The notes under the pieces were generated by a model. That model did not search any database and had not been told where the DNA came from. It saw only the letters and a program-made list of their open reading frames with translations. Of a stretch of 43,248 nt of DNA, positions 15,010 through 40,288 are shown one piece after another; position 1 is the stretch's first letter, and every line of letters begins with the position of its first letter. This stretch comes from Clostridium sp. (GTDB taxonomy: Bacteria > Bacillota > Clostridia > Lachnospirales > Lachnospiraceae). The stretch spans positions 1 to 43,248 of the forward strand of contig JAMPFU010000027.1 of NCBI GenBank assembly GCA_023664385.1, written 5' to 3'. The translations under genes were made by a program, and so were the position numbers.

Positions 15010-15270
15010 AAATAATCCTCCTTAAAAAGAAAAAGCCAATGTCTCCTGCGATTACTATAATCACAGAAGTCATCAGCTTAATAAAAGCGGTTTTGGTTTC
15101 CCAAGGGAGAACTTCATTCCCTTGCTATACTTTAACAAGGAAACTAAAAATTGTCAATCATTTTATAAGCACGATGGAAAGGGCTGCGACAGCCCAATTG
15201 AATTTTATGGATTTTGCGGTATCATGTGCTCGATATTAAATATTAAAATCCAAAAAGTTTATTAAATTTA

Positions 15271-29576: not shown

Positions 29577-29668
29577 TTTTCTGTCAACAATATAAAACTA
29601 TATAAAACTGTGTTCCAGATATTTGTTGTCAAATTGGAAAATATATGTTATAAAATAACGATAGGCAG

Positions 29669-29826
29669 AACAATACATCTCGGAAGCCGGTGTAAGTCCG
29701 GCACTGTGTCTCAGCAACCGTGTTGTCTACGAAGGGACGTGCAAATTTGCAGCCACTGAAGCATAGCTTTTGCTTTGGGAAGGTGTCTTAGTAGGATAAA
29801 GACTAAGTCGGGAGACCTGTATTGTT
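29669..29826 (+). ncRNA. Cobalamin (adenosylcobalamin-type) riboswitch
   Basis: The conserved core is visible in order: GAAGCCGGTGTAAGTCCGGC and ACTGTG, then GCCACTG (29752-29758), GGGAAGG (29777-29783) and AGTCGGGAGACCTG (29806-29819). AACAATAC (29669-29676) pairs with GTATTGTT (29819-29826) as the closing P1 stem. The first gene begins 240 bases downstream. The long leader after the aptamer lacks a convincing strong terminator, so control could be at translation or through the weak GCGT/ACGC stem near 29867. Confidence 0.92.
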
Positions 29827-29984
29827 ATTACGAACGGAAGTCTTCTGAGGTAGGGCGGCGTTTTGTGCTTCTTATTTTTGTACGCTTTTTTACAGTTGAA
29901 GCATAAAAATATCTGATTTCTTATTTTAGATTGACGGTTCAGTCGTATGTTCAGCATTTTACAACATGATATGAGTGGCAGGCC

Positions 29985-30030
29985 ATAGGCAGAATTAAAA
30001 CCTGCTAAGCTTCGAACTACAGCATCGAGG
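29985..30030. repeat. Second dispersed repeat type, copy 3
   Basis: GGCAGAATTAAAACCTGC followed by TTCGAACTACAGCATCGA resembles 25335-25375. It lies in the leader between the riboswitch and the first gene of the corrinoid operon. Confidence 0.5.
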
Positions 30031-30065
30031 ATGTTGTAATTGTACACAAGGAGGGAGACTACATA

Positions 30066-31577
30066 TTGGAAAATAAGAAAAAGAAAACGCTGTACAATGC
30101 TCTGATGGTTCTTTTCATTGTAGTCATAGCCTTTTGCGGCGCAATGATAGTTGCTGTTACAAAGGGATATGTGGGGCATAAGGGAAGCAGCATAGATGTA
30201 AACGAAGTCTATGGTGTGGTGAGCATTGAGAAAAATGACATTATATACACCTTAGATGAAAAGTCGAAAATTACGGAAGGAAATGTAATAACGACAAGAA
30301 ATGGGGCAAGAGTAAGCTTTGGCGGAGAATACATATTAGGGGAAAATTCAGCAGCGGCTGTGAATAAAATTGATGGCGAGCTGATGGATATTCAGCTTAT
30401 ATCGGGTGATATGCTTATATGCCTTGGGGAAAATGACATTCCCGTACAAATCAGCATAGAAGATACAATAATAACCTGTGACGGTGGGATATTTTCTATA
30501 AGCGCACAGACGGGAACGACAACGGTAAGCGTATTTTCAGATGAAGTAACCGTAAGCATGGGAGAGCAGGACGAGAAAATATTATCGGGAGCGTTTTTGT
30601 GCGTCATGGACGAGGAAACCTATTCCGGCGACATAAGTATAAGCTCTTTGAACGGATTTTATTTGTCACTGTTATCAAAGCTTAGCGAAAGCAATGAGCT
30701 GTGTTTTACAAGGTCGGAATTTGAAGCACTTGCCGCAGAACGGCAGAACGAGATACAGGAGCTTCAAAATGGAAGTGGGAACATCGTTTATTTGGACGCA
30801 AATGCTTCCGGGGGAAAAGAGAATGATATAGCACAGCAAGATGAGAACGCATACGCACAGGTATATACTCAAGTGGACGTAACGTATGCGGAAGGCGGCG
30901 ATACCTTAAATGAAACGGTAAATGGAGGAAGTGCTGAAAACAGTACCGTTCAGGGAAATAAAACGGATCATGGCATATCTGACAATGCTGGAAAGGGAAA
31001 TACCACAGAGACAGAAAATGGAAAGAAACCACAGACAGCCGTTGCGGAAGGAGGAAAAAAACCACAGGAGGAAAGCACAGGAGGTGGGAAAAAACCACAG
31101 ACGGTTACTGAGGAAAGTAAGGGAACAGAGTCACCTTCCACTACTGAGGAGCCGAAGGCAGAGCCAAAGGTCATGACCTGCACAGTGCAGATTAGGTGCG
31201 ATACCATATTAAACAATCTTGAGGATTTGAAACCGGGAAAGGAAGCATATGTGCCTGAAAGTGGAATTATATTGGGAACTACCACAGTAGAATTTACGGA
31301 GGGCGAAACGGCGTTTGACGTGCTGAAAAGAGTATGCTCCTATTACGGGTTACAGATAGAATATTCTTATACACCCCTTTACGGCAGTTATTATATTGAG
31401 GGTATCAATTATTTATACGAGTTTGACTGTGGAAGTCAGTCAGGCTGGATGTATAAGGTAAATGGCTGGTTTCCAAATTATGGCTGCAGCTCTTATGTGA
31501 TGGCTGATGGAGATACTATGGTTTGGTGCTACACCTGTAAAGGACTTGGAGAAGATGTTGGCGGAAGCGTATATTAA
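30066..31577 (+). CDS. FecR-like/DUF4430 membrane-anchored protein, likely corrinoid-binding
   Basis: A 503-residue exported protein starting at TTG 30066, eight bases after AAGGAGGGAG. One N-terminal membrane helix (about residues 10-33) precedes a FecR-like beta domain (about 45-185; YGVVSIEKNDIIYTL, LISGDMLICLGENDIPVQIS). A hydrophilic Glu/Lys/Pro-rich linker with GGKKPQ repeats (about 300-365) leads to a C-terminal DUF4430 domain (372-503; FTEGETAFDVLKRVC, YEFDCGSQSGWMYKVNGWFP). DUF4430 resembles the C-terminal domain of transcobalamin. Placement behind a cobalamin riboswitch and ahead of an ECF transporter supports surface corrinoid binding; binding itself is inferred. Operon with the next gene 11 bases on. 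Confidence 0.88.
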   Translation: MENKKKKTLYNALMVLFIVVIAFCGAMIVAVTKGYVGHKGSSIDVNEVYGVVSIEKNDIIYTLDEKSKITEGNVITTRNGARVSFGGEYILGENSAAAVNKIDGELMDIQLISGDMLICLGENDIPVQISIEDTIITCDGGIFSISAQTGTTTVSVFSDEVTVSMGEQDEKILSGAFLCVMDEETYSGDISISSLNGFYLSLLSKLSESNELCFTRSEFEALAAERQNEIQELQNGSGNIVYLDANASGGKENDIAQQDENAYAQVYTQVDVTYAEGGDTLNETVNGGSAENSTVQGNKTDHGISDNAGKGNTTETENGKKPQTAVAEGGKKPQEESTGGGKKPQTVTEESKGTESPSTTEEPKAEPKVMTCTVQIRCDTILNNLEDLKPGKEAYVPESGIILGTTTVEFTEGETAFDVLKRVCSYYGLQIEYSYTPLYGSYYIEGINYLYEFDCGSQSGWMYKVNGWFPNYGCSSYVMADGDTMVWCYTCKGLGEDVGGSVY

Positions 31578-31588
31578 AGGAGGAGAAA

Positions 31589-34500
31589 ATGATGACAGCA
31601 TACAAAAAACAAGGTAAGAGAGTGATAGCCGCCTTTTTGGCAATCTGTATGGCGCTTGCATTTATGCCATTAAATGTAAAAGCGGCAGAACCATCAGACA
31701 GCATATACGAGGTAAGCGAAGGTACCCCGACAGATGCAAATGCAGACAAGATAACAACAGAAACCGCAGTTGCAAATACAGATAAAATAACAACGGAAAC
31801 CGTAGATGCAAATACAGATAAAACAACAGAAACTATAGATGCAAGTACAGATAAAATAACAACGGAAACCGAAGCTGCAAGCGTGGATGAAGCAACAACG
31901 GAAACCGAAGCTGCAAGTGCAGTCAAAGCAGCAAAAAAAGCAGCAGCTATAAATGCAGTAAGTGAAGCAAATCAGCAGCTTGAGGGGCTTGCATCTCTTA
32001 AAATATGCACGCAGTATACACCGAACTCGGCAAGCGTAATACTTAGAAATGAAACCGATACATATGAGACAAAAAACGTGTTTTCCACGGAAGTGAAGGA
32101 ATATAATCTTGGCTTCATAAATGATAATTATACGAACCTTTATTTTAAGGTAACGCCGTATACAGGCTATGACACAATAACGATTTACTATGGCGATGGA
32201 CAGAAGAAGGAAATAAAAAATGTGAAAGCAACTTCGGAGACGGCAATATTTGCACCATGCGTTTTGGCTGGAAAAAATACATTTACGATTGAGGCTTCAG
32301 GGACAGGAAAAGCTACGGTTACTTATACGTTCCATTTGGATATGATACCTACATTGACGGGGCTTACATTTGATACGGGGGAATATGAGCAGTTTACGGA
32401 TAAAACCTTTTCGTACAACGACTTTGAGTATACTCTTACCATTCCTGAAGGTGCAGATAGCGTAATCTTTCAGGCTGTGCCGAGAAAGGATAATTACACG
32501 GTAACCTACAATGACGCTTCCTCATCTGCTGTTGCAACGCAGGGTGTTGACAAGGTACTTGTTAAGGTATCTGTGGGAGAAGGCGCAGATAAGCTTGAAA
32601 ATACATACACGGTTCATTTTGATAAAAAGCAATCTACTGGCTTTAAGGTAAACACCATACCGGAGGATGCAGTTGTCATGGTATATGATAAAAACGGACG
32701 TCCTCTCAAGAAAACAGACGGCGGCTATGAGGGATTGTTCTCCACTGGGGACTATTCCTATACCGTTACAAAAACAGGTTACATTGGTGTATCAGGGGAT
32801 GTTCCTGCGGCTGGTGGAGAAATCAATGTCACATTGGATAAGGCGTCTGAAAATCAGCCACAGGAGGTGGAAACCCAATGGAAGAACTTTAGGGACAGCG
32901 ATGTCAATATGGGCATTACCGATGCGGAAACGCCTATCAATGCTGAAGAAACAGAGCTTTTGTGGGCGAAAAAGCTGGGCAGTGGTTGGGGAAACGCTCC
33001 AAGCGTACAGATAATTGTGGATGATGCTCTGATTGTTATGGCAGGAGCAAATCTGTATAAGCTTGATTTAAAGACGGGAGAGATACTTGCCCAGGCAGCG
33101 ATGGTGGCAGCGCCTAATTGGGGATATACGCCTCCAGCCTATGCAAACGGAATGATATTTTGTCCACTAACAGGTGGAGTAATACAGGCATTTGATGCAA
33201 AGACGCTTGATTCACTTTGGATTTACAAAGATGGATTAGGGGGACAATCGCTATCTCCAATTACATATACTGACGGATATATCTATACAGGCTTTTGGAA
33301 CAGTGAGACAAGGGATGCCAACTATGTATGTATCAGTGTAACTGACGAGGACACGACAAGGGGAAATGAAGATAAGCTTGCAACATGGAAGCATACGCAG
33401 GCAGGCGGCTTTTACTGGGCTGGCTCTGTGGCTGTAGGGGACTATGTTATAGTTGGGACTGATGACGGTACAAGCGGAACAAGTGGAAACGCAAGCCTGT
33501 ATTCCTTTAAAAAAGAAACAGGGGAGATTGTGTCAAGGCTTGTTCTTGAAGGCATGGGGGATCAAAGGTCCTCGATGGCATATGACAGTACCACGGGAAG
33601 GGTATATTTTACGACGAAGGGTGGATATTTGTGTAGTGCCAAGGTAGATGCTTCGGGAAATTTGTTACAGCTAAAAAGCGTTAATTATAATGCACAAAGC
33701 ACAAGTACGCCGATTGTATATAAGGGAAAGGTTTATTTTGCAACAGGAAGCGGAATATCCTCAACAGGCTCCAGTGGAAATGTAGTCGTTGCAGATGCAG
33801 AGACGCTTGAAATGTATTATGCCGTAGGATTAAAGGGCTATCCACAGTGCTCGCTGCTTCTTTCAACAGCATATGAGCAGGCAACGGGATATATCTATCT
33901 TTATTCCTCATACAACAACACGCCTGGTGGAATATCCATGATAAAGGTAAAACCGGAGGCAACCACGGCAGATGAGGCGGAGCTTGTTGAGCTTTATGAT
34001 GCCAAGGGGTATGAGCAGTATTGTATCACGAGCATCATATGTGACAAGGACGGAACGCTTTACTATAAAAATGACAGTGCAAATGTTATGGCAGTGGGTG
34101 TGCTCGCCTATGTTAAGGTAATCAACAAAATTGTAAATTTAGGGGATGTAAATCTTGAAAGTGAGGCTGCAATTATTAAGGCAGAGGAAGCATATGAGAA
34201 GCTTGATGAGGAAGAAAAAGCAAAGATTACAAATTATAGTACGCTTGTCAATGCAAGACAGATATTTGAAACGCTTAGGGCAGAAAAAAATGCCGGCGAC
34301 ATGGACGCACTTATCAGTGCAATTGGAAGCGTGACGCTTGAAAGTGAGGCTGCAATTATTGAGGCGGAGGAAGCATATGAGAAGCTTACGGCTGCTGAGA
34401 AAGAGCTTGTTAAGGCTTACGATATTTTGCAGGCGGCAAGAAAAGAGTATGACAGACTGAAGGAGGAGGAAAAAAATAAACCTTCCGTACCAACGCCTCC

Positions 34501-35581
34501 TACAGCAGAGGAGAAAAACCCAGAGGAGGATTTGCCGACAACGGAAGAAAAAAGTCCGACAGAGGAACAGCCCCCTATAACAGAGGAAGAAAAACCTGTT
34601 GTGGATTTGCCTAAGGCAGAGGATAAGGTGCCTTCAGAAAGTGAAGGAAGCTCCAATGTAAAAAGACCGGGAGGAATTACCATAGGCGGCAACCTTGTAA
34701 AGGCTGATAATAAGTCAGACAATAAGCAGGAAAGTAAAATAGAAGAAAGTGTACAAAAGACGGATGCTGCTGTCAGTGGGGCAAATTCTGAAAGCAGAGC
34801 TACACAATTTACAAATAGAGCAGTGGACAGCTTGGGCAAGGAGTTAAAGAGAATTGTGCAGGGAGAAGTAGAAGAAATCACTGCTGAGGAAATGGATACG
34901 GCGATAGCGCTTTATAACGAATACAGTATGCTGACGGAGGCAGAACAGGCAGAGGTAGAAAACTATGAGGATTTGCAACAGGTGTTTGAAATAATCGGAA
35001 CGATAAATCATAGAGATGCGTCATCCGGCATTGATATTGATGGGCTTCAATGGTATTATAAGTTAAATGTATATGAGAGGGCATTGGACAATTCCGTGAT
35101 TGACAGGCTGGCGCAAATACCGAATAAGGATATGAAGGAGCTTTGTTCATACAACATAAGCATTACGGATTTGATAAAAGACGAAAGCTATGATTTTGCT
35201 GATGGCATTACGGTCCGTATACCAAAGCCTGATATGCAGGGGTACACCAATGCATTTGTCGTATGTCACGCAGATAGTGGGGAAACTGCCATGAAATGTA
35301 ATGTTATTGCACTTTCCACCGTTCCAGTACCTTCCACAAGCAAGGGAACGGAGGCCACTATCATAAAATGTGATGAGGTAGACGGCTATCTTACATTTAC
35401 GGCATATGAAAATGCGAATTATACTGTGATAGGTACAAATGCTGATTATGAACAGCTTATAAATGGAGCGACTGCCAACAGTGAAAATGGTATGATATGG
35501 ATTTTGATTACCATAGGAGCACTTTCAATGGCAGGACTTGTAGTGGTTATAATAAAAAGAAAAAAGTCGGAACATGAGTAG
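31589..35581 (+). CDS. Giant anchored surface protein with beta-propeller repeats
   Basis: A 1330-residue protein with a signal peptide (to AFMPLNVKAA), a Thr/Glu repeat linker (TDKITTET-type, residues 45-110), two cadherin-like beta-sandwich segments (about 130-355), a PEGA-like segment (VNTIPEDAVVMVYDKNG), and a PQQ-like beta-propeller (about 435-840; DALIVMAGANLYKLDLKTG, VVIGT, GYLCSAKVD). Then come two helical FIVAR-like repeats (LESEAAIIxAEEAYEKL), a Pro/Glu stalk, another domain and one C-terminal helix with KRKKSEHE, a membrane anchor without LPXTG. In a B12-riboswitch operon ahead of ECF genes, the propeller is a candidate corrinoid receptor. Its stop overlaps the EcfT start by 8 bp. 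ATG-ATG start after AGGAGG. Confidence 0.85.
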   Translation: MMTAYKKQGKRVIAAFLAICMALAFMPLNVKAAEPSDSIYEVSEGTPTDANADKITTETAVANTDKITTETVDANTDKTTETIDASTDKITTETEAASVDEATTETEAASAVKAAKKAAAINAVSEANQQLEGLASLKICTQYTPNSASVILRNETDTYETKNVFSTEVKEYNLGFINDNYTNLYFKVTPYTGYDTITIYYGDGQKKEIKNVKATSETAIFAPCVLAGKNTFTIEASGTGKATVTYTFHLDMIPTLTGLTFDTGEYEQFTDKTFSYNDFEYTLTIPEGADSVIFQAVPRKDNYTVTYNDASSSAVATQGVDKVLVKVSVGEGADKLENTYTVHFDKKQSTGFKVNTIPEDAVVMVYDKNGRPLKKTDGGYEGLFSTGDYSYTVTKTGYIGVSGDVPAAGGEINVTLDKASENQPQEVETQWKNFRDSDVNMGITDAETPINAEETELLWAKKLGSGWGNAPSVQIIVDDALIVMAGANLYKLDLKTGEILAQAAMVAAPNWGYTPPAYANGMIFCPLTGGVIQAFDAKTLDSLWIYKDGLGGQSLSPITYTDGYIYTGFWNSETRDANYVCISVTDEDTTRGNEDKLATWKHTQAGGFYWAGSVAVGDYVIVGTDDGTSGTSGNASLYSFKKETGEIVSRLVLEGMGDQRSSMAYDSTTGRVYFTTKGGYLCSAKVDASGNLLQLKSVNYNAQSTSTPIVYKGKVYFATGSGISSTGSSGNVVVADAETLEMYYAVGLKGYPQCSLLLSTAYEQATGYIYLYSSYNNTPGGISMIKVKPEATTADEAELVELYDAKGYEQYCITSIICDKDGTLYYKNDSANVMAVGVLAYVKVINKIVNLGDVNLESEAAIIKAEEAYEKLDEEEKAKITNYSTLVNARQIFETLRAEKNAGDMDALISAIGSVTLESEAAIIEAEEAYEKLTAAEKELVKAYDILQAARKEYDRLKEEEKNKPSVPTPPTAEEKNPEEDLPTTEEKSPTEEQPPITEEEKPVVDLPKAEDKVPSESEGSSNVKRPGGITIGGNLVKADNKSDNKQESKIEESVQKTDAAVSGANSESRATQFTNRAVDSLGKELKRIVQGEVEEITAEEMDTAIALYNEYSMLTEAEQAEVENYEDLQQVFEIIGTINHRDASSGIDIDGLQWYYKLNVYERALDNSVIDRLAQIPNKDMKELCSYNISITDLIKDESYDFADGITVRIPKPDMQGYTNAFVVCHADSGETAMKCNVIALSTVPVPSTSKGTEATIIKCDEVDGYLTFTAYENANYTVIGTNADYEQLINGATANSENGMIWILITIGALSMAGLVVVIIKRKKSEHE

Positions 35582-36455
35582 AGAAAAGAAATTTGCAGCT
35601 TACAATCCAATCGCCAGCTTTGTATATTTTGCAGGAGCAATCGTAATCAGCATGATTACCATGCACCCTGCGGCTGCTTTGCTTTCCCTTGTTATGGCAG
35701 CCGTATGTTATATCAATATGCATGGCAGGGATGCATGGAAGGTTGTTTGCGCTATGCTGCCAATCTATGTTTTGCTTGCACTTGCAAATCCCGTGTTTAA
35801 TACAAGGGGAGAGACGATATTGTTTACTTATTTTGGAGGACGTGTATTTACGCTGGAGGCACTATACTACGGTATAGTGCTTGCAGCTATGTTTATTTCC
35901 GTCATTTTATGGTTTTTCGTCTATCATAAAATAATGACGGCTGACAAGCTGTTATATATATTTGGAGGACTTGCGCCGGCAGTGGGACTTGCCCTTTCCA
36001 TGATACTTCGGCTTTTGCCTTATTACAGAACCCATATGAAAAGCATATCCGCCGCAAGGAAAGTGGTGTCATGTGACGGTGAAAATAGAACCGTTGAGGC
36101 TGCAAATATTATGCTGGCAATGCTTTCGTGGTCGCTTGAGGAGGGAGTTATCACTGCGGACAGTATGAAATGCAGGGGGTATGGCTGTGGGAAACGGAGC
36201 CGCTTTTCGGTATATGTATTGAAAGCAGGAGATGTTCTTTTCATGCTGTGGAGTATTGTACTATTTTTATGTATCATGGTTTGTAAGGCGAAAAAGGGGT
36301 TTGAGGCTGTATTTCTGCCCTGCATCAATATAAGCGGCATGGATAATGATTATTTTGTCATGGGGCTTGCGGCTATGGTATTATATTTTGCAACACCGAT
36401 TGTGATAAATGTTACGGAGGCAGTAAAATGGCACTATTTGAAATCAAGGATTTGA
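35574..36455 (+). CDS. ecfT: ECF transporter transmembrane component (EcfT), first copy
   Basis: A 293-residue membrane protein with 5-6 hydrophobic helices and the long cytoplasmic coupling helices; SMKCRGYG contains the Arg-Gly motif that docks on the ATPase. EcfT transmits ATPase movement to the S component. Its start overlaps the surface-protein gene by 8 bp and its end overlaps the ATPase gene by 28 bp, so all are translationally coupled. A second, distinct EcfT is in the same operon (38790). Confidence 0.92.
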   Translation: MSREKKFAAYNPIASFVYFAGAIVISMITMHPAAALLSLVMAAVCYINMHGRDAWKVVCAMLPIYVLLALANPVFNTRGETILFTYFGGRVFTLEALYYGIVLAAMFISVILWFFVYHKIMTADKLLYIFGGLAPAVGLALSMILRLLPYYRTHMKSISAARKVVSCDGENRTVEAANIMLAMLSWSLEEGVITADSMKCRGYGCGKRSRFSVYVLKAGDVLFMLWSIVLFLCIMVCKAKKGFEAVFLPCINISGMDNDYFVMGLAAMVLYFATPIVINVTEAVKWHYLKSRI

Positions 36456-38080
36456 ACTTTTGCTATCCTGTCAGGGAGCGTGAGGCTTTAACTGATATTA
36501 ATCTTGCGATTGAGCAGGGGGAATATATAACAATATGTGGAAAAAGCGGAAGCGGGAAAACAACACTGCTGAAACATTTAAAGCCCCCTATCACGCCTAA
36601 GGGAAAGAAATCAGGGACGGTGCTGTTTGAGGAAACGCCTGTGGAGGCATTGGATTTGAGAACGCAGGCGGCACAAATAGGATATGTCATGCAAAATCCT
36701 GATAATCAGATTGTGACGGACAAGGTATGGCATGAGCTTGCCTTTGGACTTGAAAGCCTTGGGTACGACACGAGGACCATCAGGCTCAAGGTGGCTGAAA
36801 TGGCAAGCTATTTTGGAATACAGGACTGGTTTTATAAAGATGTAAACGAGCTTTCAGGGGGGCAGAAGCAACTTCTGAATCTTGCCTCCATTATGGCGAT
36901 GCAGCCTAAGGCACTCATATGTGATGAGCCGACATCACAGCTTGACCCCATTGCGGCATCGGACTTTTTGCAGACGATAAAGAAAATTAATCTTGAGCTT
37001 GGCACCACAATAATCATGTCGGAGCATCGGCTTGAGGAGGTGTTTCCTGCCTCGGACAGGGTTGCAGTCATGGAGGAGGGGAGGATTATTGCGTGCGACA
37101 CGCCAAGGCTTGTGGGAGACATGCTGAAAAAGGAAAACAGCGATATGGCTGCGGCACTGCCTGCACCGATGCAGATATATTACGGAGTGGGAGGCAAGGC
37201 AGCTTGTCCCCTTACCGTGAGAGAGGGAAGAAGCTGGCTCACAAAGGAGCTTGCAGGCAAAGCTTTAAAAAGGGACAGGCTTGATGAGTCTGATTTACCT
37301 GATGAGCCTGAAAAACCTGCAATTAAAACAAAGGAGCTTTGGTACAGATACAGTAAGGAGGGGGCAGATGTCTTAAAGGGTGCTTCCATTTCCGTACCAA
37401 AAGGGAGCTTTTATGCCATTGTAGGTGGAAACGGCACGGGAAAGTCAACCTTTTTAAAATCAATATGCGGAATATTAAAGCCCTACAGTGGAACGGTCAT
37501 CATAGATGGAAAAAAGCTTGATAAATATAAGAAAGGGGAGCTTTTTCAGGGACATTTGGCAATGCTGCCGCAGGACCCGCAAAGTCTGTTCGTGAAAAAA
37601 ACGGTCAGGGAGGAGCTGCTTGAGATGGTTCATGGCAGCGAGGCAGAACAGGAAGTGGACGCCATGGCAAAAAAATGTCTGATTCGTCCTCTTTTGGATA
37701 AGCACCCATACGATATATCAGGCGGCGAACAGCAAAGGACGGCACTTGCAAAGGTGCTTTTGACAAAGCCGTCAATACTGCTTATGGATGAGCCTACAAA
37801 AGGCATGGATAATTATTTTAAGCAGAGCCTTGTGGGAATTTTGAGGGAGCTTGAGAACCTTACAATATTGATGGTTTCGCATGACATAGAATTTTGTGCA
37901 AAATATGCTGATTACGTGAGTATGTTTTTTGACGGTGGAGTGATAACGACAAATACGGCAAGGAAATTTTTTTCGGGCAACAGCTTTTATACAACATCGG
38001 CAAACCGCATGAGCAGACACATATTTGCAAATGCCGTAACTGAGGAGGATGTGATAACATTATGCAGGGAAAATCTGTAA
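36428..38080 (+). CDS. ecfA: ECF ATPase with two fused ABC domains (EcfA-EcfA')
   Basis: A 550-residue fusion of two ABC ATPases, normally separate EcfA1 and EcfA2. The first has Walker A GKSGSGKTT (38-46), signature LSGGQKQ and Walker B ALICDEPTSQLDP. The second, from about residue 300, has Walker A GGNGTGKST, signature ISGGEQQR and Walker B ILLMDEPTKGMD. All catalytic elements look intact. A linker of about 60 residues joins them. It powers the S component by ATP hydrolysis. Start ATG 36428 has GGAGG nine bases upstream inside ecfT. The next gene overlaps its end by 19 bp. Confidence 0.95.
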   Translation: MALFEIKDLNFCYPVREREALTDINLAIEQGEYITICGKSGSGKTTLLKHLKPPITPKGKKSGTVLFEETPVEALDLRTQAAQIGYVMQNPDNQIVTDKVWHELAFGLESLGYDTRTIRLKVAEMASYFGIQDWFYKDVNELSGGQKQLLNLASIMAMQPKALICDEPTSQLDPIAASDFLQTIKKINLELGTTIIMSEHRLEEVFPASDRVAVMEEGRIIACDTPRLVGDMLKKENSDMAAALPAPMQIYYGVGGKAACPLTVREGRSWLTKELAGKALKRDRLDESDLPDEPEKPAIKTKELWYRYSKEGADVLKGASISVPKGSFYAIVGGNGTGKSTFLKSICGILKPYSGTVIIDGKKLDKYKKGELFQGHLAMLPQDPQSLFVKKTVREELLEMVHGSEAEQEVDAMAKKCLIRPLLDKHPYDISGGEQQRTALAKVLLTKPSILLMDEPTKGMDNYFKQSLVGILRELENLTILMVSHDIEFCAKYADYVSMFFDGGVITTNTARKFFSGNSFYTTSANRMSRHIFANAVTEEDVITLCRENL

Positions 38081-38763
38081 AAAGATGGGTTGGATATATG
38101 GTTATGCTGTTGGTTTCAATTTTGCTGTTGCTTGTCTTTTGGAAGCTTGGCAATGGGCGGTATTATTTATTTGCAACCTTGCTTATTATCGGTGGCATGA
38201 TGCCGTTTATATTTGGCTTTGAAAGAAAAAAGCCGCAGGCAGCAGAGATAGTCCTTGTGTCAGTTATGAGTGCGGTTGCCGTTGCGTCGAGGATGGCTTT
38301 TTCTTTTGTTCCACACTTTAAGCCTATGGCGGCAATTGTTATGATAACAGGAATGGCATTTGGTCCGACAGCAGGATTTATTTCAGGAATGTTGTCGGCT
38401 TTTGTAAGCGATTTTACCTTTGGTCCGGGACCGTGGATGCCGTGGCAGATGTTCGCCTTCGGAATGGCGGGATTTATAGCTGGTATTTTGTACGAGAAAA
38501 AAATAATAAATGAAAATAAGAGGCTTGTAACTGCCCTGCTCGGCTTTTTACTTATCGTGCTTATCGTTGGACCGCTGTTAGACACATCAACCTTTTTCCT
38601 GATGGACGGCATGCTGGGAGATATGACGATGTGGTCAATCTATTTATCAGGGTTGTCTGTAAATGCTGTACATGGCGTGGCTGTCGCAATGACGCTGCTT
38701 CTTTTGTGCAAGCCATTTATGGAGAGAATAAACAGAATTAAAGTTAAATATGACATTTCGTGA
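38062..38763 (+). CDS. ECF S component, probable corrinoid-specific (CbrT-like)
   Basis: A 233-residue membrane protein with 7-8 hydrophobic segments. The region FKPMAAIVMITGMAFGPTAG then FISGMLSAFVSDFTFGPGPW is typical of S components that bind a small vitamin from outside. ATG 38062 overlaps the ATPase gene end. Substrate is assigned by context: the operon is under a cobalamin riboswitch and includes a DUF4430 protein. It resembles the CbrT type, though related S components for other precursors exist, such as DMB-like or corrinoid-base uptake. It would dock onto one or both EcfT proteins. Confidence 0.85.
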   Translation: MQGKSVKRWVGYMVMLLVSILLLLVFWKLGNGRYYLFATLLIIGGMMPFIFGFERKKPQAAEIVLVSVMSAVAVASRMAFSFVPHFKPMAAIVMITGMAFGPTAGFISGMLSAFVSDFTFGPGPWMPWQMFAFGMAGFIAGILYEKKIINENKRLVTALLGFLLIVLIVGPLLDTSTFFLMDGMLGDMTMWSIYLSGLSVNAVHGVAVAMTLLLLCKPFMERINRIKVKYDIS

Positions 38764-38789
38764 TGCCGTATTTTATATGAGGAATCTGC

Positions 38790-39692
38790 ATGAAATTTGA
38801 AAATTATCATCCGGGCATTAATTTCATATATTTTTTATTTTCCATGACATTTATACTTTGGTTTAATCACCCTGTTTATGTTGTCATCGCTTTTTTATCC
38901 TCCTTTGCCTATTCTATAAAATTAAATGGAAAGCGGGAGGTAATATTTAATTTTATATTAATTTTATTTGTTGTAATCTACTGCTTGTGGTATTCTTATT
39001 ACAATCATTTTGGAATTACAAACATAAGAAAAAATTTTATTGGGAATAATATTACGGCGGAGGCACTTTTTTATGGATTGGTGCGAGGAATGACTATAGC
39101 GGCGTTTATTATGAATTTTGCCTGTCTGCTTGCGGTTTTTTCCACCGATAAGGTAATATACCTTGCTGGCAGGCTGTTCCCAAGACTTTCGCTTTTTATT
39201 TCCATATTTCTCAGGAGCTTTTCACGCATAAGGGAAAGAAATGCGGCTGTAACGATGTCGAGAAAAGGAATTGGAATGGGAAAAGGACAAGGCACAATAA
39301 TAGGCGGCATAAGAAACAGGCTGCGCATACTGTCAATCGTTATTACGTGGACATTGGAGGATTACATGGAAAGCTCCATGTCAATGAAATGCAGGGGGTA
39401 TACGTTAAAGCATAGGACATCCTTTTCCATATACCGCTTTGATAACAGGGACAGAAGCCTTGTGATAATGCTTTTTATAGGCATAACCCTTACGCTTATG
39501 GCAGTGATGCTCAATCAGACAACGATATTATATGATCCTGAAATCATTATGTACAGACCGAAGGGCTGGTCGTATCTGTTTTACTTGTCATATGCCTGCT
39601 TCCTGCTTCTGCCGATGGGAATAGAAATCGTGAACGCAATTAAATATGAGAAAATGCACAGGGAGGAAGATGCTTATGCAAAACTCCTATAA
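38790..39692 (+). CDS. ecfT: ECF transmembrane component (EcfT), second copy
   Basis: A 300-residue EcfT paralogue, diverged from that at 35574 but with the same layout: N-terminal helices, then SMSMKCRGYTLKHRTSFSIY with the Arg-Gly coupling motif, then two further helices. An ECF complex normally has one T. Start at ATG 38790, 26 bases after the S gene; GAGG upstream. The cysteine-rich gene starts inside its end. The pair may make a two-T complex or serve alternative S proteins. Confidence 0.88.
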   Translation: MKFENYHPGINFIYFLFSMTFILWFNHPVYVVIAFLSSFAYSIKLNGKREVIFNFILILFVVIYCLWYSYYNHFGITNIRKNFIGNNITAEALFYGLVRGMTIAAFIMNFACLLAVFSTDKVIYLAGRLFPRLSLFISIFLRSFSRIRERNAAVTMSRKGIGMGKGQGTIIGGIRNRLRILSIVITWTLEDYMESSMSMKCRGYTLKHRTSFSIYRFDNRDRSLVIMLFIGITLTLMAVMLNQTTILYDPEIIMYRPKGWSYLFYLSYACFLLLPMGIEIVNAIKYEKMHREEDAYAKLL

Positions 39693-39933
39693 ATATTTTG
39701 AAAATAGGGAATGTAACTATTATCCATGCCATGAGGGAATAGATCATATAAACTGTCTGTTCTGCTTCTGTCCGTTATATGATATGGAAGAATGTCCCGG
39801 AAATCCTAAGTACATAACTGTAAACGGCAGAAAAATAAAGGAATGTACAAGCTGCACCTTTCCCCACAGGGCAGAAAACTATGAGGCAGTTTTAGAAAGG
39901 AAAAATCTGCATGAAAAAGATACTTCTTTATAG
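39676..39933 (+). CDS. Cysteine-rich small-domain protein
   Basis: An 85-residue protein with eight Cys in patterns such as FENRECNYYPCHEG, CLFCFCPLYDMEECPG and CTSCTFPHRA, suited to Zn or Fe-S binding. The cysteine-rich small domain (PF04071) is known as a neighbour of or fusion partner to cobalamin synthesis proteins, in line with this operon. ATG 39676 is chosen for GGGAGGAAG upstream. It overlaps the second ecfT by 17 bp and DUF3783 by 23 bp. Confidence 0.85.
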   Translation: MQNSYKYFENRECNYYPCHEGIDHINCLFCFCPLYDMEECPGNPKYITVNGRKIKECTSCTFPHRAENYEAVLERKNLHEKDTSL

Positions 39934-40288
39934 CTATCCAAATGACATTCACAAAAAAATTTCAGATATATGTCTTGCGTGTGAAATAGAGTGCAAAAAA
40001 ATACCAAAAAAAAGATTTTTGCAGACAATCGGAAATCATATAGGCATACCGGGGCATGAGGGCACAGGTGAATTATACGGGGAAAGTGACCTTGCCGAGC
40101 CTGTGATGCTGCTTGCAGGCATGAGCACTAGCGAGCTTGACAGTATACTTGATACCTTCAAAAATTTAGGCATACCGTCCGTGGGCTTTAAGGCAGTTGT
40201 CACAAGCCATAATATAAATTGGACGATACTTGATTTGTATGAGGAGCTTGCAAGGGAAAGGGAAGCCATGCAAAAAAGACAGGGCTAA
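39911..40288 (+). CDS. DUF3783 domain protein
   Basis: A 125-residue cytosolic protein with the features of DUF3783: PVMLLAGMSTSELDSILDTF and IPSVGFKAVVTSHNINWTILDLYEEL. Function is unknown; it looks like a small regulatory or adaptor fold. It is the last gene of the corrinoid operon, overlapping the cysteine-rich gene, and 114 bases separate it from the next. Confidence 0.82.
   Translation: MKKILLYSYPNDIHKKISDICLACEIECKKIPKKRFLQTIGNHIGIPGHEGTGELYGESDLAEPVMLLAGMSTSELDSILDTFKNLGIPSVGFKAVVTSHNINWTILDLYEELAREREAMQKRQG

Follow-up and report, generated by a model that had tools for sequence, protein, structure and literature searches.

A cobalamin riboswitch operon of a Lachnospiraceae bacterium, predicted to scavenge corrinoids, encodes a conserved surface β-propeller, a DUF4430 protein and a CbrT-like ECF transporter

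Overview

The 43,248 bp contig JAMPFU010000027.1 of Clostridium sp. (Lachnospiraceae; assembly GCA_023664385.1), hereafter the window, carries eight genes behind a cobalamin riboswitch that encode a surface protein with a DUF4430 domain, a large surface β-propeller protein and the subunits of an energy-coupling factor (ECF) transporter. We lean towards a riboswitch-controlled corrinoid scavenging operon in which the propeller would hold the corrinoid, the DUF4430 domain would cap it and the CbrT-like ECF transporter would import it. A more specific proposal, which we hold to be possible rather than probable, is that a PQQ/BamB-type propeller replaced the α/α toroid of a transcobalamin-like clamp in one lineage, with the β-grasp domain as a cap above it, and feeds a dedicated CbrT-type ECF transporter with two EcfT subunits. 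The data presented below directly support the operon, the riboswitch class, the gene families, their conservation and fusions, and the lack of a toroid, CbiD or CobS match in the genome.

Organization of the operon and its riboswitch

The window is contig C19 of an assembly of 3.17 Mb (completeness 100%, contamination 1.14%). A cobalamin riboswitch followed by eight close or overlapping genes had been claimed by an initial annotation made from the sequence, and both are borne out (Table 1). The eight genes lie on the same strand downstream of the riboswitch and encode, in this order, the DUF4430 protein, the propeller protein, EcfT, a fused EcfAA′, the S component, a second EcfT, a PF04071 protein and a DUF3783 protein. 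Five of the seven gene junctions overlap and the remaining two are gaps of 11 and 26 bases. The start of the locus, placed at 29669, needs correction: the riboswitch is real but its aptamer begins 43 bases earlier. It is the only RF00174 match in the whole genome. Four of the five pairs of a predicted aptamer helix are kept through two-sided changes across nine leaders, that of the window included. Scans for other signals were not used: terminator-like sites were at chance level (9 found, 9.6 expected), while promoter-like sites exceeded those of shuffled sequences (44 versus 29.1, standard deviation 5.6) but were scattered on both strands.

Table 1. Features of the predicted corrinoid scavenging operon in the window
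Feature	Coordinates	Strand	Evidence
Cobalamin riboswitch aptamer (RF00174)	29626-29838	+	cmscan 55.4 bits, E 3.2e-11, cut-off 31.5, full length
DUF4430 surface protein	30066-31577	+	Pfam DUF4430 4.1e-17, 62.8 bits (cut-off 23.8); TTG start behind AAGGAGG
Propeller surface protein (1330 aa)	31589-35581	+	PQQ_2 1.3e-9; Cadherin-like 9.8e-4 (under cut-off)
EcfT (T1), transmembrane coupling subunit	35574-36455	+	no meaningful Pfam match; profile A4
EcfA-EcfA′ ATPases fused in one chain	36428-38080	+	two ABC_tran stretches; TIGR04520 (ECF_ATPase_1) 3.3e-102
S component, CbrT-like (predicted corrinoid-binding membrane subunit)	38062-38763	+	PF07155 2e-16
Second EcfT (T2)	38790-39692	+	profile A4; T2 group in the EcfT tree
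PF04071 cysteine-rich small protein	39646-39933	+	Pfam 2.3e-21
DUF3783 protein	39911-40288	+	Pfam 3.7e-20

Of 176 propeller relatives found in named genomes, the best 80 loci (79 fetched loci and the window) were used for comparison. All eight genes are found in identical order in locus L046, whose DNA is 94.7% identical over 13.6 kb. Seven of them are called in each of L047 and L048, where the PF04071 gene is not called. The operon of these three loci is flanked, as in the window, by major facilitator superfamily and SbcD-like neighbours, with an extra 2.7 kb before the SbcD-like gene in L047. Only the downstream neighbours are kept in L049 (JAMPBO010000002.1). This record, titled Bacteroides sp., retains the operon together with the downstream genes, its propeller is 74–76% identical to that of the window, and it is possibly a mislabelled metagenome-assembled genome. 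A recent horizontal gain of the operon was considered and found unsupported: its G+C content is 0.425 versus 0.410 for the window and L046, L047 and L048 share the same neighbours. Beside this stands the absence of the propeller from the nine sampled genomes of the family, which is weighed further below.

Conservation of the surface proteins and the riboswitch

The co-occurrence of the two surface domains was surveyed in 291 genomes of the class with a 74-row propeller profile (E ≤1e-10). The propeller is present in 14 genomes and all of them also have DUF4430, a domain found in 133 of the 291 (hypergeometric probability 1.2e-5, ignoring kinship). A DUF4430 gene is present in 69 of the 80 loci and a toroid in 42; at least one ECF gene is found in 39 and a full ECF set in 32. 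The surface pair proposed initially is thus conserved. Five loci have none of these partners; they span 3.5 to 13.3 kb, and the propeller of two of them (L052, L092) lies at the locus end. DUF4430 and propeller are encoded in a single chain in 21 of the 80 loci, and five chains combine DUF4430, propeller and toroid (L072, L077, L079, L091, L119). The L077 chain, read by eye and with hidden Markov models, comprises a hydrophobic leader, DUF4430, a cadherin-like part, the propeller, a helical linker, the toroid and S-layer homology-like repeats.

Riboswitches were counted in the genomes of the first 50 of the 80 loci, reduced to 49 by the lack of a propeller open reading frame in L074. In 31 of these 49 loci, and in 31 of the 35 whose run is uncut, the run of same-strand genes that includes the propeller has a cobalamin riboswitch at its head. 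Direct cmscan of the locus confirmed 24 of the 31, and the other seven (L048, L049, L071, L076, L082, L089, L090) were placed through coordinates and a box motif. Among the remaining 18 loci, 14 have runs that reach a contig or locus edge (including L086, 326 bases away), L056 has a sub-cut-off match (25.7 bits), L078 has its cobalamin riboswitch on the opposite strand, and no cobalamin riboswitch is in view ahead of the propeller run in L057 and L067. An all-Rfam scan of 46 related loci at gathering thresholds found cobalamin as the sole riboswitch class, the other matches being tRNA, tmRNA and pemK RNA. Surface and ECF genes under unrelated riboswitches, set beforehand as a test of the corrinoid assignment, were thus not encountered. 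In a first, smaller set of 14 stretches around propeller genes, cobalamin riboswitches were present in eight and ECF genes in seven; in one of these stretches, L043, a cobalamin riboswitch lies ahead of another gene about 10 kb from the propeller.

Two further arrangements were seen around propeller genes. Several cobalamin riboswitches, some on opposite strands, are clustered ahead of some propeller operons (L072:1922-3475, L059:6456-7266, L077:1344-1819). In another gene layout the propeller, mostly together with DUF4430 and toroid genes, lies near genes for a MoxR AAA+ ATPase, a membrane protein and a transglutaminase-like protein (e.g., L097:2955-7280, L090:14625-18457, L076:1182-5620, L098:5896-9912). 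Some of these clusters (L076, L089, L090) are found behind cobalamin riboswitches.

The ECF transporter

Among solved S components, that of the window is closest to CbrT. A profile of its sequence and six relatives (A2) matches the Protein Data Bank chain 6fnp_A at 3.2e-19. The second-best chain, 4hzu_S (8.2e-5), is weaker by 14 orders of magnitude, and 3p5n_A, a riboflavin uptake protein, follows at 0.024. We take 6fnp to be ECF-CbrT, and the ECF-CbrT of Lactobacillus delbrueckii to belong to group II; the search label of 6fnp reads only “Membrane protein” and the entry is also listed under EcfT. The cobalamin riboswitch at the operon head and this CbrT-like S component support the predicted function of the transporter in corrinoid import, as initially proposed. 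Transport of B12 by ECF-CbrT was demonstrated in 2018 (PMC5997447, excerpt).

EcfT, EcfA, EcfA′ and the S component are encoded together, in agreement with the “full ECF transporter” of the initial annotation, but there are two EcfT genes rather than one. A profile of T1, T2 and seven relatives (A4) matches the solved EcfT chain 5d3m_D at 3.1e-19. T1 and T2 are 23% identical. Two EcfT genes occur in 14 loci including the window; the pair of L101 belongs to two ECF sets, and in the other 13 loci one EcfT gene precedes the ATPase gene and one follows it. In the EcfT tree, the 16 copies encoded downstream of the ATPase gene group together (Shimodaira–Hasegawa-like approximate likelihood ratio test, SH-aLRT, 99). 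The second EcfT therefore seems to be a paralogue that arose long ago and was retained, not the product of a recent duplication.

The transporter genes are arranged differently in some relatives. EcfAA′ and the S component form a single chain in L057, L064, L065, L073, L094, L101, L102, L109, L117, L118 and L124. In the 21 kb locus L101, from Anaerovorax sp., one propeller is accompanied by two toroid genes, four DUF4430 domains and two complete ECF sets.

Requirement for cobamides

The genome of the window encodes MetH, a homocysteine methyltransferase with pterin and B12-binding domains, and a B12-binding radical SAM protein. No match to the CbiD and CobS models was found in this genome; these models match six and ten, respectively, of 14 control genomes. 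Because MetH is present and both synthesis proteins lack a match, the bacterium probably needs ready-made cobamides. The operon is the only one with a cobalamin riboswitch found in the genome. The presence of MetH together with the lack of CbiD, CobS and a second cobalamin riboswitch makes B12 scavenging by the operon very likely, and the initial proposal of scavenging without synthesis agrees with the gene content.

The propeller protein

The propeller protein starts with a signal peptide-like hydrophobic N-terminus (hydrophobicity score 2.35), followed by a cadherin-like part, the propeller (residues ~426–838), helical repeats recognized by eye and a C-terminal transmembrane anchor (2.57). 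Eight propeller repeats were counted by eye on the sequence. Solved PQQ-domain, BamB, designed and quinoprotein propellers lead the matches to its profile (A1), and neither the name BtuG nor the code 3dsm is present among the 60 of 61 solved chains listed. The similarity to PQQ enzymes and BamB holds only at the level of the fold family, the NCBIfam matches of the window protein itself being far below cut-offs.

Homology to BtuG was considered for the window propeller and rejected for want of sequence support. It matches PQQ_2 and Beta-prop_ACSF4 only, with no match to DUF5074, which we take to be the family of BtuG, and is instead of PQQ/BamB type. DUF5074 matches are found in 14 of 74 propeller rows (best 6.8e-9). 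Of ten propeller rows viewed in detail two have such a match (L103, L077); in both it spans only a portion of the DUF5074 model and scores below PQQ_2.

The propeller domains of 73 aligned rows are 33–88% identical to that of the window. With blade boundaries drawn by eye, the D–A and B–C loops of the presumed ligand face have a mean Jensen–Shannon divergence of 0.514 versus 0.453 for the opposite loops (one-sided p 0.015). The 60 most conserved propeller positions include the aromatic residues W511, F608, Y609, W610, Y751 and Y811 as well as a KNDS stretch with which the last B strand ends. The domain is acidic, with a net charge of −19. BtuG2 binds its corrinoid in the central pocket of a negatively charged face through tryptophan and tyrosine contacts (PMC10404256, excerpt). 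The comparison supports a ligand face in the window propeller by analogy, the two proteins belonging to different sequence families.

The DUF4430 protein

The DUF4430 protein comprises a hydrophobic N-terminal membrane anchor (score 3.11), a weak FecR-like part, a low-complexity linker and the C-terminal DUF4430 domain at residues 413–490, the only match to this family in the genome. The fusion of DUF4430 to a FecR-like domain that had been proposed stands for the former and not for the latter, whose match (E 0.01, 16.7 bits) is below the cut-off of 24. We read the Pfam family DUF4430 as the transcobalamin-like clade described by Burroughs et al. in 2007. Alignments of selected rows (33 of 53 rows in A9, 14 in A10) show two kinds of the domain. 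The first is mostly encoded by separate genes near transporter genes (consensus YEFDCGxxSGWMYKVNGWFPNYG) and the second is mostly fused to a propeller (EFDGGxxSGWMxTLNDWF).

A propeller clade without the toroid

Many relatives carry a third surface domain, the α/α toroid, a point absent from the initial annotation. The propeller tree was built by a quick method from 74 rows, after seven of 81 rows (L046, L112, L113, L115, L117, L121, L123) were dropped from the alignment (A6) as presumed close copies. The window belongs to a clade of 21 rows (SH-aLRT 94), and no toroid is found in any of their fetched loci. A 35-row toroid profile searched against whole genomes gave no match in 19 of the 21 genomes of the clade, including that of the window. 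The genomes of L046, a near copy outside the tree, and of L067, from a neighbouring group, also lack a match. The toroid was therefore rejected as a universal part of these systems for the clade of the window.

Proposed mechanism and alternative explanations

The following sequence of events would account for these features. At low cellular cobalamin the leader would permit expression of the operon. The propeller protein, anchored by its C-terminus, would hold a whole cobamide on its loop face. The β-grasp DUF4430 domain, anchored alongside, would close over the ligand, as the β-grasp domain of transcobalamin closes over B12 held by the α/α toroid, so that the propeller would perform the work of the toroid in the lineage of the window. 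The ligand might then be passed to the CbrT-like S component, imported by the EcfT/EcfAA′ module and used by MetH. We also infer whatever part the second EcfT may have.

A number of observations weigh against this scheme. The p value of the face comparison is modest and the gain is due to the D–A loops alone (0.556): the B–C loops (0.465) are less conserved than the opposite A–B turns (0.514), and the B strands have the highest value (0.619). The sequence tie between DUF4430 and transcobalamin is weak. The transcobalamin chain 5no0_A was matched by profile A3 at E 0.28, behind a chance-like viral match (0.26), and was not recovered at E ≤1 by the larger profile A9. Nine genomes of the same family, including one from the same genus, were sampled; none has the propeller and four have DUF4430. 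The propeller also lies beside MoxR and transglutaminase genes in 23 of the 80 loci, 19 of which have no ECF gene in the fetched flanks. The propeller is thus not tied to ECF import alone and may serve another scheme in these lineages.

The toroid argument has its own counterweights. The support of the window clade is below the 95 mark, and many of its genomes are metagenome-assembled and may be incomplete. Two clade genomes, those of L052 (6.3e-108) and L058 (4.1e-57), carry a toroid away from the propeller locus, and the L048 genome, counted as lacking it, has a marginal match of 92 residues (3.5e-4). The toroid profile itself matches squalene-hopene cyclases and not transcobalamin. It matched the control genomes L062, L077, L101, L106 and L079 at 5.3e-91 to 1.4e-111, but the first four had contributed rows to the profile; L079, L052 and L058 had not.

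The same corrinoid import operon might employ the propeller only as a scaffold or wall tether, the ligand being bound by DUF4430 alone or together with the S component. PQQ/BamB-type propellers are often protein-binding scaffolds, this long, membrane-anchored protein includes spacers of cadherin-like and helical type, and the loop-face comparison is modest. Tethering was also proposed for such accessory domains by Burroughs et al. (PMC1796856, excerpt). We consider this explanation rather unlikely since the propeller is kept at 33–88% identity over the 73 rows while chain length and partner domains vary, the D–A loops of one face are well conserved and the propeller persists where the toroid is not found. 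It is improbable that the propeller acts by piracy, docking on a B12-loaded protein or vesicle that the host or another microbe has produced instead of holding free corrinoid. The record titles of many relatives (not counted) point to animal gut or rumen samples, and BtuG2 is able to strip B12 from intrinsic factor (PMC6977713, excerpt), but there is no direct evidence for piracy and relatives occur also in records without an animal host in the title, such as Syntrophaceticus schinkii. Import of cobalt is scarcely credible: cobalamin riboswitches also control cobalt uptake genes, the ATPases are CbiO-like and the same T and A families occur in ECF systems for cobalt. Against this, the S component resembles CbrT, the eight genes include no CbiM or CbiN match, a genome without CbiD and CobS matches would have no evident need of cobalt for making B12, and a transcobalamin-like domain would serve no evident purpose with cobalt ions.

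Corrinoid capture by propeller and DUF4430, if true, would represent a second, independent recruitment of a β-propeller as a surface B12 receptor, besides BtuG. Extracellular capture of scarce cobamides by Gram-positive gut bacteria is poorly known, and a transcobalamin-like domain acting with a large propeller would be a new, testable route for Gram-positives to catch B12. The conserved set of surface domains, with natural single-chain fusions small enough for purification, makes the question directly testable and allows BtuG and animal transcobalamin to be compared with an independent system.

Other features of the window

Relatives of the two small genes at the operon end, PF04071 and DUF3783, are called in three and four of the 80 loci, respectively. 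Elsewhere in the window, a fluoride riboswitch (RF01734, 49.8 bits) is found at 15057-15130 (−), and positions 1-962 contain the last part of a 23S rRNA gene and, after it, six tRNA genes.

Comparison with known systems

The operon type is not new, although the initial annotation presented it as such. Extracellular transcobalamin-like SLBB proteins of low-GC Gram-positive bacteria, in predicted operons with CbiO and CbiQ, were described in 2007 by Burroughs et al. (PMC1796856, excerpt, as for the following statements from this work). The genomes usually lack key B12 synthesis enzymes and B12 scavenging was proposed; one SLBB protein was fused to a β-propeller, and surface tethering was suggested for accessory domains. 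The window shares with these operons a surface transcobalamin-like β-grasp domain and an ECF-type transporter in bacteria that do not make B12. The propeller was one accessory among several in that account, whereas in the window and its relatives it is conserved behind cobalamin riboswitches and most genomes of the clade show no toroid. No work treating this propeller together with an ECF transporter was found in the open-licence literature, judged by titles and abstract starts among the matches listed. Within these matches, the new elements are the conserved propeller, its association with riboswitches, the clade without a toroid and the paired EcfT genes.

In transcobalamin and intrinsic factor the β-grasp and a second domain enclose B12; for transcobalamin these are an SLBB β-grasp domain and an α/α toroid that sandwich the ligand, and bacterial SLBB proteins are commonly fused to a toroid (PMC1796856). 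Many relatives of the window likewise carry toroid and β-grasp, whereas the genome of the window and 18 of the 20 other genomes of its clade have the propeller but no toroid match.

The ECF-CbrT transporter of Lactobacillus delbrueckii (PMC5997447; 6fnp) combines, like the window, a CbrT-like S component with EcfT and EcfA/A′. Its ECF module is shared by several S components, whereas the window has a dedicated operon with an S component, a fused AA′, two EcfT and surface proteins.

BtuG of Bacteroides is, like the protein studied here, an acidic surface β-propeller encoded with B12 transport genes (PMC6143338, PMC10404256). It is a seven-bladed lipoprotein that forms a lid on the TonB-dependent BtuB, reported in the excerpts of these works only from Bacteroidetes. 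The propeller of the window differs by its eight PQQ/BamB-type repeats (counted by eye), its C-terminal transmembrane anchor and its ECF partner, and it belongs to a Gram-positive class.

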